64,000 nt of DNA, from contig NZ_JAIWPJ010000003.1 in assembly GCF_020515625.1 (NCBI RefSeq), forward strand, positions 124,001 through 188,000. The letters run 5' to 3'. The translations under genes were made by a program, and so were the position numbers. Within the stretch, counting starts at the first letter, position 1. Each line of letters starts with the position of its first letter. Of the stretch, positions 5,954 to 32,436 are shown piece by piece. The notes beneath the pieces were generated by a model. That model did not search any database. It saw only the letters and a program-made list of their open reading frames with translations, and had not been told where the DNA came from. This stretch comes from Natrinema amylolyticum. GTDB lineage: Archaea; Halobacteriota; Halobacteria; Halobacteriales; Natrialbaceae.

Positions 5954-6296
5954 ACACGGCTCTCGCGTTGCTCGAGCCGTGTGACCCTACGGAAGAGCAA
6001 GCTCTTCGAGCGGCGAGGGACCTCTGGTCCCTCGAGCAGTCGGCGCGAAGCGCCGACGACCTCGCGGAAGCTTCGCTTCCGCTCAACGGGGAAGGGCAGG
6101 CGGTTTCTCGATAGTCACCGCGAGCGAGGCCGCAGGCCGAGCGAGCGGGCCGACGACTGATTCGGAGCGAACGAAGTGAGCGGAGAGGAAGGAGGAGTGC
6201 TTTTATACTGAACTTTGCCGAGGACCGCCTTCGGCGGTTCGTGGTTCGAAAGGCGCGAAGCGCCTTTCGTCATCACGAGAGAGCTCCGCTCTCTCG
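5954..6296. repeat. Hairpin cluster 1 (triloop inverted repeats, some with tandem G-A mismatches)
   Basis: Ten adjacent inverted repeats between convergent gene ends. Perfect stems with a 3-base loop: 6014-6034 (9 bp, loop TCT), 6039-6057 (8 bp, GAA), 6064-6082 (8 bp, TTC, i.e. GAA on the other strand), 6224-6238 (6 bp, TTC), 6247-6269 (10 bp, GAA), 6276-6296 (9 bp, TCC). Stems with internal tandem 5'-GA-3' facing 5'-GA-3': 6118-6148 (14 positions, loop GCA, two such mismatches) and 6167-6181 (loop GAA). Also 5992-6007, and 5954-5982 with a longer loop. The stem sequences differ but the architecture repeats, so this is not one duplicated unit. Confidence 0.85.
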
Positions 6297-6319
6297 AACG
6301 ACAGAGCAAAATTTAGTTC

Positions 6320-20760: not shown

Positions 20761-21275
20761 TGCCGGAGTTCGACGTCGTCGAGTTGGGACCGACGGACCA
20801 CCCCGAACCCGGCGAGGAGGCCCCCGACTTCACCCGACCGCTCGTCACCGACGAGTTCTGGGAGGACCGGACCCTCTCGGAACTCGTCGGCGAGGCCGAC
20901 GGCCGAACGATCCTCGTCTTCACGCCGATGACCGGCTCGTTTGTCGCCAAGTACGTCTGGGACGAGTTGACGGACCGAAACTGGGACGATCGCGCGGGAC
21001 GGGTCGTCGGCGTCACGGCATCGACCCCCTACGGCGTCAAGCGGTTCCTCGGGGACAACGACTACCCCTTCACGTTCTTTACCGATCCGAACAACGAGGT
21101 CGCCGACTCGTACGGCATCGCCCACGACCTCGACGGGATGACCGGCCTCAGTGAACCCCGCGTCGCCTTCTTCGCGCTCGACGGCGATCGCACGGTCGAG
21201 GGCGCGTGGGTCGCCACCGACTGGCCCGACTTCCCCGACTACGACGCCCTCGAGTCCGAACTCGGGCTCGAGTGA
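20760..21275 (+). CDS. Redoxin-fold protein without cysteine
   Basis: 171 residues with the AhpC/TSA fold order (PGEEAPDFTRPLVTDEFWED; GRTILVFTPMTGSFVAKYVW; VVGVTASTPYGVKRFLGDND; YPFTFFTDPNNEVADSYGIA). Where peroxiredoxins have the peroxidatic Cys (TPxCT/S), this protein has TPMTGS, and no cysteine occurs anywhere in it. It cannot be an ordinary thiol peroxidase. It is coupled to the CPYC glutaredoxin upstream. It may bind rather than reduce a partner, or be a structural relic; family function in haloarchaea is unknown to me. Confidence 0.78.
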   Translation: MPEFDVVELGPTDHPEPGEEAPDFTRPLVTDEFWEDRTLSELVGEADGRTILVFTPMTGSFVAKYVWDELTDRNWDDRAGRVVGVTASTPYGVKRFLGDNDYPFTFFTDPNNEVADSYGIAHDLDGMTGLSEPRVAFFALDGDRTVEGAWVATDWPDFPDYDALESELGLE

Positions 21276-21292
21276 CCGGCGCTGAGCGACAG

Positions 21293-21298
21293 TTTTTT
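21293..21298 (+). terminator. T-tract after the redoxin gene
   Basis: Six consecutive T on the coding strand 18 bases after the redoxin stop; archaeal RNA polymerase terminates at such oligo-T runs. Confidence 0.5.
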
Positions 21299-21325
21299 CC
21301 TCGGCATCCGCCGAGTTCGAACCGA

Positions 21326-21913
21326 ATGAGCGAGTTCGACCGCGCGGCCGAGGCGATCGCGGACGGGAACCTCGTCGTCTACCCGACCGAGACGGTCTAC
21401 GGCCTCGCCGCGGACGCCCTTGACCCCGCCGCCGTCGAGCGGGTCTTCGAAGTGAAAGGCCGGGACCGCTCGAAGCCGATCTCCTTCGCGGTGCCCTCGG
21501 TCCCGTCTGCGCTGCAACACGTCCACGCGACCGAGCGGGAACGGCAGTTCATGGGAACGTTTCTCCCCGGCCCCGTGACGGTCCTCTGTCGGCGACGCGA
21601 GGCCGTCCCGGACGAACTCACGGAAGGGCGAGACCGCGTCGGGGTCCGGGTACCGGACCACGCGGTCGCGCTGCGGCTCTGTGAGCGGGCCGGAACGCCG
21701 ATCACGTCGACCAGCGCGAACGTCAGCGGCCGTGAGAGCGCCCGACGGCCCGCAGACCTCGATCCCGAGATTCGGGAGGCGGCCGCGGTCGTCCTCGACG
21801 GGGGCGAGACCGACGGCGGGACCGAGAGCACCGTCGTCGACGTCTCGAGCGAAACGATCCACCGACGGGGCGCGATGGCCGACGAGATCGAGGCCTGGCT
21901 CGAGGACTCGTAA
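21326..21913 (+). CDS. Threonylcarbamoyl-AMP synthase (Sua5/TsaC)
   Basis: 195 residues from ATG 21326. YrdC-fold motifs: GNLVVYPTETVYGLAADALD, VKGRDRSKPISFAVPS, FLPGPVTVLCRRR, RVGVRVPDHAVALRLCERAG, PITSTSANVSGRESA and the late STVVDVSSETIHRRGAM. It makes L-threonylcarbamoyl-AMP from Thr, bicarbonate and ATP for the t6A37 modification of ANN-decoding tRNAs. It lacks the extra C-terminal Sua5 domain, so it is the short TsaC-like form. Confidence 0.9.
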   Translation: MSEFDRAAEAIADGNLVVYPTETVYGLAADALDPAAVERVFEVKGRDRSKPISFAVPSVPSALQHVHATERERQFMGTFLPGPVTVLCRRREAVPDELTEGRDRVGVRVPDHAVALRLCERAGTPITSTSANVSGRESARRPADLDPEIREAAAVVLDGGETDGGTESTVVDVSSETIHRRGAMADEIEAWLEDS

Positions 21914-21991
21914 CAGAGGGGAATGTGGACAGTAGCGGGGACCACTGTCTCACTTCGGACCGGTCAACCGGTGTGTGGTGGCGCGCGCTGT

Positions 21992-22172
21992 GCTGCGGTG
22001 AGTTACTGACGAACCGCAGCCTGAAGCCGTGCGAGGTCTTCGTGAACGGAGTGAACGAAGGCGTGGAAGACGCGAAGCGTCTTCCAGTGGATGAGCGAAC
22101 GAACAGAGTGAGTGAGCGTTAGCGCGGAACCGACGGTTCCGCGAACCATACGAACGGGCACGAAGTGCCCGT
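21992..22172. repeat. Hairpin cluster 2 (triloop inverted repeats with tandem G-A mismatches)
   Basis: Six consecutive hairpins: 21992-22020 (8 bp, tandem G-A mismatch, 2 bp, loop TACTG), 22038-22060 (6 bp, tandem G-A, 2 bp, loop GGA), 22064-22086 (10 bp, loop GAA), 22095-22117 (2 bp, tandem G-A, 2 bp, tandem G-A, 2 bp, loop AGA), 22123-22143 (9 bp, GAC) and 22154-22172 (8 bp, GAA). Each mismatch has 5'-GA-3' opposite 5'-GA-3' between a 5' pyrimidine and a 3' purine. Same construction as cluster 1; again between convergent genes. The flanks to 21914 and 22323 hold nothing else I can identify. Confidence 0.85.
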
Positions 22173-22323
22173 GAGTAGAAATCGGCTGGGGAGGACGTGG
22201 CGATTCCCTGTTGCCACGGTAGCAGGATACTTCATCTCACACGTTCCCAGTCGACTCCACTGCTCCGTTCACACCTCATCGAAGGCTCCAACTCGAGGCG
22301 AGGAGCAGAACTGCGGGCAATCA

Positions 22324-23010
22324 CTATTCGAACCCCAGCAACGACCGCAGGGTCCGCGTCTTGACCCCACATTCGGCCGCGAACTCGCAGGACTCGCACT
22401 TCGAGCGGTTGGTCGTCCGCGCCGGCGGACCGTCTAACTCGCGGACCGCCCGGAGCGCGCTCCGATACTGCGCCTTCCGTCGCGTCGTCAACTCGAGCGA
22501 CCGAATCACACCGTAGGCCGGATACTCGAGCCAGGCCCGATCGACCGACTGCTGGTGCTCCCAGGCCAGCGCCTTCGCGGCCGCGACCGCGTGAACGGAC
22601 TGGGACTCCCAGACGCCGTTTTCGGGCGGCTCCCCGGACGAAATCAGCGCCGGCTCGAGCGGATCGGCGAGCACCTTGTGAACGACGCCGCGACAGTCGC
22701 GGCCGGTCGCGAACACCTCTCGGTCGGCGGGTTCGCAGAGGCGGTCCCACTGGCCCGCGTCCGCGAGTCGGTCGCGGGTCGCGCCCAGTCGATCGCGGTA
22801 GCGAACGGCCGGGACGGCGATCGGCTCCGACTCGAGGGTTCCCGACGGGGCCTCGAGCAGTTCGTCGTAGCGGGTCGCGAGCACTCGGATCGAGTCGACC
22901 TCGGGCGGCGGCTCGCGGTCCTCGTCGGCCTGCCTCCGCTGATAGTAACACTTCCGCGGGCAGTAGGCGGCGGTCCGCAGATCGCTGAACGAGACGAGCG
23001 CGCGGGTCAC
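22324..23010 (-). CDS. Stand-alone Cas4/RecB-like Fe-S protein
   Basis: 228 residues if started at GTG 23010 (VTRALVSFSDLRTAAYCPRK); an upstream ATG at 23100 would put the TATA box inside the gene. The Cas4-type Fe-S ligands are visible: one N-terminal Cys in AAYCPRKCYYQRR and three near the end (KCESCEFAAECG). In between is the nuclease-fold region (GRDCRGVVHKVLADPLEPAL). Active Cas4 has a metal-binding Asp where this has His (GVVHKV) and an E/D-x-K motif I cannot find, so nuclease activity is doubtful. No cas genes or array nearby. Confidence 0.75.
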   Translation of the reverse strand: MTRALVSFSDLRTAAYCPRKCYYQRRQADEDREPPPEVDSIRVLATRYDELLEAPSGTLESEPIAVPAVRYRDRLGATRDRLADAGQWDRLCEPADREVFATGRDCRGVVHKVLADPLEPALISSGEPPENGVWESQSVHAVAAAKALAWEHQQSVDRAWLEYPAYGVIRSLELTTRRKAQYRSALRAVRELDGPPARTTNRSKCESCEFAAECGVKTRTLRSLLGFE

Positions 23011-23030
23011 GAACCGTCTGGCCGCGCCCT

Positions 23031-23040
23031 CGTATAAGAA
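23031..23040 (-). promoter_or_regulatory. TATA box of the Cas4-like gene
   Basis: TTCTTATACG on the minus strand, centred 25 bases before GTG 23010. It fits a leaderless start and is the reason for choosing that codon. Confidence 0.6.
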
Positions 23041-23156
23041 GTCTCGGTCGCATCTGGATAGCGATTCGCCTACGGAGCAGCGGAATCGACTGCAGTGCAA
23101 TCCGTCACACCGAACGCGAGCGCGGCGAGCGAGGACCCCGTGAAAACGTTCGGTAC

Positions 23157-32316: not shown

Positions 32317-32436
32317 ATGGTAGGAATAGAACGAGATCGGACGAGTACCGAGATGGCCCGATTCGGCGTACTGAATCAGTCGATGGCGAATCGCACCGCG
32401 AGCGATCACGAGCGGGAGAGCGAAGGCGAGCGCTGA
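32317..32436 (+). CDS. Possible 39-codon small ORF ahead of the Tat-exported protein
   Basis: Reads [20 protein letters not shown] and ends [15 protein letters not shown], two bases before the next ATG. An AT-rich box (AATTAATAAATAG, 32282-32294) is centred about 27 bases upstream of its ATG, as for a leaderless start. Composition is polar with no known motif. It may simply be the leader of the next gene; translation is not shown. Confidence 0.3.

Follow-up and report, generated by a model that had tools for sequence, protein, structure and literature searches.

The six-hairpin cluster at positions 21992-22172 of the window (the whole stretch of 64,000 nucleotides of Natrinema amylolyticum DNA that was analysed) is one copy of a high-copy, chromosomal, non-coding repeat that occurs across the haloarchaea and is new to the RNA family library that we searched. 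With slightly better than even confidence, we read the cluster as the interior of a haloarchaea-wide dispersed structured repeat of RNA type, with a putative action as RNA and a putative binding role for its ladder of G-A mismatches.

Results

The hairpin cluster and its flanking genes

A first-pass annotation had described six hairpins between convergent genes, and all six were recovered at the positions it gave (Table 1). The central hairpin, said to alternate tandem GA mismatches with CA/TG pairs around an AGA loop, does read GC-GA-AC-GA-AC-AGA-GT-GA-GT-GA-GC, and the claimed placement of every mismatch between pyrimidine and purine holds for 86 of the 92 GA mismatches among family members (alignment A2, below). 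The convergent setting is also correct, with a plus-strand Sua5/YrdC gene ending at 21913 and a minus-strand gene ending at 22324.

Single-stranded 21966-22235 folded far better than 200 dinucleotide shuffles, both as DNA (z -5.0) and as RNA (z -5.3). A strict census, restricted to hairpins with a single tandem mismatch, gave four matches in the cluster, one hairpin being entered with two loop choices, and all four were GA/GA (0.026 GA/GA expected from 500 shuffles). Over the whole window GA/GA made up 5 of 216 tandem-mismatch hairpins, with about 4.3 expected. When both strands of the window were scanned for a double-rung GA ladder, matches were found at 22097-22115, 6122-6144 and 32400-32423, and 20 block shuffles of the window gave two matches in total.

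Table 1. Coordinates of the element in the window, its parts and the flanking genes.
Feature	Position	Strand	Evidence
Whole element, model R1	21973..22234	+	Split matches 21973-22110 and 22114-22234; cmsearch E 1.7e-12 and 1.7e-14
Conserved 5' box GGTGGCGCGCGCTG	21977..21990	+	Upstream of core with 0-3 edits in 41/42 aligned copies
Helix P1, 5' strand CGCGCG	21982..21987	+	Pairs with 22028-22033 CGTGCG; R1 alignment
Hairpin hp1, one tandem GA: GCTGCGGT-GA-GT-TACTG-AC-GA-ACCGCAGC	21992..22020	+	Mismatch census; family stem covaries
Helix P1, 3' strand CGTGCG	22028..22033	+	R1 alignment and covariation
Extra hairpin module, tandem GA: CTTCGT-GA-AC-GGA-GT-GA-ACGAAG	22038..22060	+	Mismatch census
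Extra hairpin module, exact stem, GAA loop	22064..22086	+	Exact-stem listing
Central GA-ladder hairpin hp2 (key hairpin of the first-pass annotation)	22095..22117	+	Letters, ladder scan, family-wide test
Extra hairpin module, exact stem	22123..22143	+	Exact-stem listing
Extra hairpin module, tandem GA: TAC-GA-ACGGGCAC-GAA-GTGCCCGT-GA-GTA	22149..22177	+	Exact stems and mismatch census
Conserved box AATCGGCTGGGGAGG	22180..22194	+	42 own-genome copies; A1 columns near-invariant
3' part: CGTGGC...GCCACG hairpin, tail GTAGCAGGAYAC	22195..22234	+	Copy alignment, A1
Upstream convergent gene, Sua5/YrdC-family domain	21206..21913	+	PF01300, E 1.8e-54; true start probably downstream
Downstream convergent gene, marginal Cas4-like match	22324..23100	-	PF01930, 21 bits, under cut-off 22.7

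A high-copy repeat across the haloarchaea

A search of the same genome with 21900-22250 returned 73 matching pieces. The cluster is therefore not unique and forms the interior of a dispersed element, which extends past the annotated hairpins on either side. We retrieved 39 places and aligned 42 copies of the conserved 3' core. The six hairpins are bracketed by conserved ends, GGTGGCGCGCGCTG and AATCGGCTGGGGAGG...AGCAGGACACT, and the consensus of the short copies consists of GGTGGCGCGCGCTG, a variable hairpin, GCGAGGGATGA, a GA-rich hairpin and AATCGGCTGGGGAGGGCGTGG...GTTGCCACGGTAGCAGGACACT. A few of the looser matches to the 5' box (L015, L033, L046) look like chance. The element measures about 150-260 bp, and the copy in the window is of the long type and carries extra hairpins; modules of the type at 22038-22060 are missing in short copies and swapped between orthologues. 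A relative 91% identical to the window copy lies about 25 kb away (G000:C3:120366-120609). By eye, a tail like AGCAGGAC was seen in some other genera.

A covariance model, R1, was made from 18 short copies. In the genome of origin it gave 70 matches at E <=1 and 52 at E <=1e-6, or about 50 copies. For counting, 49 copies were used: split matches were merged by hand, C2:701488 (39.7 bits), C1:16517 (30.7 bits) and C3:583727 (30.6 bits) were excluded along with separate matches of at most 24.4 bits, and C3:24251 (26.3 bits), in which the core box is present, was retained. Match lists for two further Natrinema genomes, G014 and G011, were merged likewise and gave 42 and 45 copies. R1 matched 25 of 29 Natrinema genomes, with none in G002, G007, G008 and G017 and 102 copies in G023; the range is 0 to about 100, and since 107 candidates were scored per genome the high counts may be too low. 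In a sample of the Halobacteria, under strict filters and with ten candidates scored per genome, R1 matched (E <=1e-4) 131 of 292 genomes and 43 of 77 genera. The boxes CGTGCGAGGGATGA and AATCGGCTGGGGAGG are retained in copies from other families.

A pattern scan of species genomes found at least 120 stretches; 80 were among the matches listed, all under haloarchaeal titles. The same pattern had no match in viral contigs, BLAST with the element had none in phage records, and only three plasmid records matched the element. All listed copies of G014 lie on contig C1, and in the genome of origin 2 of the 49 merged copies fall outside contigs C1-C3. The window had no match among the 4227 families of Rfam, and when three elements were searched at E <=5 none came near threshold, with one chance miRNA match (17.3 bits, cut-off 80). 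Among the listings returned from the open-licence literature on haloarchaeal repeats, REPs and structured RNAs we found no description of this element family, and no title about haloarchaea appeared among the matches listed for the motif letters.

The fold is supported by covariation

Covariation across the order supports the predicted fold. Alignment A2, which was fitted to the model, drew on 100 loci and comprised 111 sequences; 59 rows came from a motif scan that demanded GGGATGAGYGA and ATCGGYTGGGGAGG, so that the 5' GA letters are forced in them, and the 52 non-scan rows were counted separately. Over the seven helices of P1, hp1 and hp2, 95.7% of cells in the 111 sequences were paired (76.0% when shuffled), and 24 of 26 pairs had double changes. 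The covariation score was 0.492, against 0.173 for shuffled and at most 0.082 for slid alignments. P1 was paired in 99.1% of cells over the 111 sequences, with double changes at all six of its pairs, or at three of six in the 52 non-scan rows; in those same rows the hp1 stem had double changes at 13 of 13 pairs. The 3' helices of the model had few double changes in A2 and gained no covariation support. A 3' pseudoknot drawn by eye (GGGGA/TTCCC with CGTGGC/GCCACG) is for this reason not claimed.

Tandem GA mismatches are a selected feature

Because A2 is fitted to a model and holds the 59 scan rows, the key test was repeated without model or alignment. We took 114 distinct hp2 sequences lying between the anchors GAGGGATG and RTCGGYTGGGG, from loci that did not come from the motif scan. 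The four GA positions were retained in 113, 106, 108 and 107 of them. The first 2-bp step between mismatches (rung 1) paired in 105 of the 114, against 73.2 with shuffled partners (maximum 82), and rung 2 in 99, against 43.6 (maximum 55). The rungs vary as GC, AC/GT, GT/AC and GG/CC while still pairing. Among 29 instances from other genera they paired in 25 and 23 (12.3 and 10.9 when shuffled); in the genome of origin alone (26 hp2), rung 1 stayed within the shuffles (22, maximum 23) and rung 2 went beyond them (23, maximum 16). Conserved GA letters, with the pairs between them free to change together, run contrary to the expectation for GA words arising by chance. Compensatory changes in the helices, as looked for in a structured element, were thus found in A2, in the count over its 52 non-scan rows and in the model-free test.

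In 41 copies of the element, GA/GA accounted for 42 of 67 tandem-mismatch hairpins, with 0.64 expected. The density of tandem GA hairpins per kb was 2.08 around the conserved core, 0.264 in other intergenic DNA (about 8-fold lower) and 0.141 in coding DNA. We conclude that the tandem GA mismatches are under selection, because they are near-invariant across the order, the surrounding pairs covary and such hairpins are about eight times denser near the core. From the core density and the model-free test, the words GAGCGAACGAA..GTGAG, which the first-pass annotation had noticed as common in haloarchaeal intergenic DNA and thought might be explained by such hairpins, appear to be largely the hp2 hairpin.

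A strand-specific signal

The 41 copies carried 42 GA/GA hairpins on the plus strand and no TC/TC hairpin. In the helices from P1 to hp2 there were 224 G-U cells and 14 A-C cells, and one pair took U-G as its commonest form (60 of 104 cells). This strand-specific pattern is not expected of a double-stranded cruciform. The tests suggested in the first-pass annotation were for single-stranded DNA; in the aligned copies, the preference for G-U leans towards RNA. G-T may be better tolerated than A-C in single-stranded DNA too, so this is a lean and not a proof. Triloops had looked telling as proof of single-stranded DNA, with 25 triloops and one tetraloop in 49 long stems of the 41 copies. This argument was dropped because the wider loop census was weak (43 triloops and 22 tetraloops in core regions, 233 and 234 in coding DNA).

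Copies are enriched between convergent genes

Gene neighbours were taken from a simple codon-usage gene caller. Of the 49 copies in the genome of origin, 28 lie between convergent genes, 8 between divergent genes and 13 between codirectional genes (7 sense, 6 antisense). Counted by spacer, 19 of 38 spacers with the element were convergent, compared with 12 of 89 without it (Fisher P = 2.9e-5), and 7 of the 38 were divergent. At the other haloarchaeal loci convergent spacers were likewise enriched (35/106 with the element, 52/347 without; P = 1.1e-4) and divergent spacers avoided (14/106 and 93/347; P = 0.004). The 71 placements of copies from other genomes, from which the duplicates L057 and L059 were excluded, comprised 19 convergent, 19 sense, 14 divergent and 12 antisense, with 7 lacking a callable neighbour. 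The sense bias in codirectional spacers was not significant (26 sense, 18 antisense; P = 0.29). The divergent copies and the lack of a significant sense excess fit a pure 3'-UTR role poorly. The convergent enrichment is explained equally well by avoidance of promoters and by a role between convergent genes.

Site inheritance and exchange between copies

The 12 of 20 G014 loci with an orthologue among 20 sampled G011 loci were 88.1% identical in the element, 92.0% in the coding flanks and 75.0% in other spacer DNA. For five of the other eight G014 loci, the G011 flanks lie at the distance of an occupied site. Element identity was widely spread, at 97.5-100% for four loci, 87.5-91.2% for three and 69.7-81.0% for five, and the best match was a copy at another site for L330 (one copy), L332, L333, L335 and L336. 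This pattern of divergence looks like strong constraint combined with replacement of one copy by another. One element, L328 compared with L349, is identical at 138 of 138 positions in two species, compared with 89.7% identity in the flanking coding DNA.

At the Sua5 spacer, 6 of 29 Natrinema genomes carry the element, 8 have about 330-360 bp without it, 14 have 0-51 bp and one was left unresolved. The six occupied spacers differ in their hairpin sets. In L105, L107-L110, L114, L115 and L117, a short open frame or small gene, judged by eye, fills the approximately 330-360 bp in place of the element. We found no clean insertion with a target-site signature; at two sites where one relative lacks the core, hairpin remnants are retained. 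These comparisons show that sites are mostly inherited vertically, that copies swap blocks and that extra hairpins of similar design are gained, lost and exchanged as modules.

Copies that neighbour each other within 700 bp were all inverted, with their 3' ends facing, in three Natrinema genomes (7/7, 7/7 and 8/8; 22/22 together, six pairs being orthologous between G014 and G011). In other genera some neighbouring copies are 5'-to-5'. In one orthologous facing pair (L321 in G014, L345 in G011) the tails and the gap between them run in opposite directions in the two species, changing over, by eye, at the GGCTGGGGAGG box, and the outer parts are not inverted; this is the one clear case in the six orthologous pairs.

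Search for a mobiliser

The Y1 transposase domain (Y1_Tnp, PF01797) was not found in 8 of the 29 Natrinema genomes (G003, G010, G011, G012, G013, G019, G023 and G028). Five of these are rich in copies (G011, 48; G012, 44; G019, 52; G023, 102; G028, 85), and G008 has seven Y1 matches and no copy. Since Y1_Tnp was not found in copy-rich genomes, mobilisation by a RAYT or other Y1 enzyme was rejected as a requirement. R1 had no significant match at the 2 Y1 and 16 TnpB-type loci of the genome of origin (best E 0.18), and an origin from PATE or IS605 elements was rejected on this result. These searches yielded no protein as the mobiliser. Both Y1 genes and most of the TnpB-type genes lie on the small contigs C4, C7, C8 and C10, where none of the 49 copies is found. 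The median R1 score, used as an approximate stand-in for the published test of identity, was about 105 bits for 14 paired copies and about 99 bits for 35 single copies.

Discussion

On the reading that we favour, the plus strand folds with P1 closing the variable hp1, followed by the GA ladder of hp2, the nearly invariant GGCTGGGGAGG box and the 3' tail. Covariation supports this fold from P1 to hp2; it would work mainly as RNA once transcription enters the spacer, with the GA ladder as a putative protein-binding or packing motif. Copies would be made by a copying process and would last best in convergent spacers, where they may do least harm or may help to separate both transcripts. A bolder and distinctly doubtful extension is that these elements form a new archaeal class of structured RNA, for which the GA ladder would be diagnostic, which would be recognised by a protein of its own and propagate along an RNA-guided or templated route without Y1, and whose facing pairs would flank a flippable segment.

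The uniform facing arrangement of close pairs in three Natrinema genomes, together with the intergenic, multi-copy and strand-specific character of the fold, could also come from REPIN-like mobile DNA that folds as a single strand and whose unit of replication would be the facing doublet, moved in trans by a Y1/HUH transposase (RAYT or IS200 TnpA). We consider this unlikely, as copies abound where Y1_Tnp was not found and G008 has Y1 matches and no copy, the Y1 and TnpB-type loci of the genome of origin lack significant R1 matches, paired and single copies score alike, and neighbours in some other genera stand 5'-to-5'. Similarly, the first-pass annotation had proposed a terminator or insulator between convergent genes, acting in both directions. 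Half of the element-bearing spacers in the genome of origin are convergent, and a pyrimidine-rich stretch often follows the tail, much as in Haloferax volcanii, for which intergenic 3' ends after T stretches and one hairpin with 59% termination are reported (PMC7237163). Its simple form fails on the frequent divergent and antisense copies, on the lack of significant sense bias (26 versus 18) and on the Sua5 locus, where 14 of 29 genomes lack the element and leave 0-51 bp between the two genes. Such a role is possible for convergent copies and, given the divergent and antisense placements, cannot be a general one; as an account of the family we think it quite unlikely.

A site acting at the DNA level, either an AGCGA-rich quadruplex or a binding site for chromosome architecture with RNA irrelevant, is very improbable. 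The hairpin hp2 often contains AGCGA words, AGCGA-quadruplexes have been described as a fold of DNA (PMC5442326), and all listed copies of G014 share one contig; the rungs, however, vary freely provided that pairing is kept, a pattern that suits a hairpin duplex and not an AGCGA repeat of fixed sequence, and the signal is strand-specific. Composition alone might produce such hairpins by chance in GC-rich intergenic DNA, and many tandem-mismatch hairpins do occur in coding DNA too. We give this explanation almost no credence: simple chance was rejected by the excess of GA/GA hairpins (42 against 0.64), by covariation over 111 sequences and by the model-free test of hp2.

The closest system in the way it works is the REP/REPIN family. 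Like REP, BIME and REPIN sequences, the element is short, structured, intergenic, present in many copies per genome and found as inverted doublets (PMC3116915). In both, singlets occur alongside doublets (PMC3116915). Inverted doublets are over-represented in our three Natrinema genomes and not universally elsewhere, doublets are no better conserved than singlets by the rough comparison of R1 scores, and the Y1 loci of the genome of origin lack the element. The element falls outside the family on two counts, the transposase and the rough comparison of doublets. The fold is also different in kind, having multiple covarying helices over 150-260 nt where REP sequences have one palindrome of 20-40 bp; and unlike bacterial REP/RAYT systems, the element is independent of Y1 transposases and the matches listed are all haloarchaeal. 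Haloquadratum PATEs and SMRs are likewise haloarchaeal, non-coding, palindrome-bearing and too short for a transposase (PMC3119063). PATE ends are reported to be related to IS605-type transposons (PMC3119063), whereas the 18 IS200/IS605-type loci of the genome of origin have no R1 match. Compared with archaeal terminators, the element shares with the Haloferax 3' ends a hairpin followed by a pyrimidine-rich stretch, often at gene ends (PMC7237163), but it is not tied to sense orientation and has a long conserved sequence.

The omegaRNAs of IS605-type elements are structured and non-coding, lie at the ends of the transposons and also have stand-alone copies. These sit at the right end of tnpB elements, whereas R1 has no match at the 16 TnpB-type loci of the genome of origin. 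A kink-turn is a three-nucleotide bulge beside tandem G-A pairs. The element resembles kink-turns and other motifs of tandem sheared G-A pairs in placing tandem 5'-GA/5'-GA between helices, mostly as Py-GA-Pu, but its rungs are symmetric, lack a 3-nt bulge and alternate with 2-bp steps. We know of no described case of nearly invariant tandem GA alternating with covarying 2-bp steps. Because this alternation is kept throughout the order, it provides direct evidence that a helix built with mismatches has been under selection. Diffuse words of haloarchaeal intergenic DNA (GAGCGAACGAA..GTGAG) resolve into a defined, covarying element that lends itself to cloning, probing and searching, and assigning the cluster to it makes a puzzling part of haloarchaeal non-coding DNA testable. 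It also raises the question of which enzyme spreads such repeats in genomes without Y1 transposases.

Other GA-ladder hairpins in the window

The hairpin at 32400-32423 (plus strand, GAGCGATCACGAGCGGGAGAGCGA) is a third that resembles a GA ladder and may be chance. An earlier cluster in the window, cluster 1, had been said to share the design and not the sequence of the present one, and this stands: it contains hairpins of the same kind, with a GA ladder at 6122-6144 and a minus-strand tandem-GA hairpin at 5954-5982, and scores at most 7.6 bits with R1. The first-pass annotation had also allowed that the clusters might prove to be one decayed mobile element. The picture reached here is close to that of a mobile element, but the two clusters do not belong to a single family and the present one is not decayed. 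Cluster 1 (5954-6300) looks like part of another dispersed repeat, judging from its segment at about 6118-6300, which matches spacers in the Natrinema loci L105, L112, L122-L125 and L127, and in L254 as well. Five genomes with matches to cluster 1 (G006, G007, G008, G021 and G024) carry only 0-2 copies of the R1 element.
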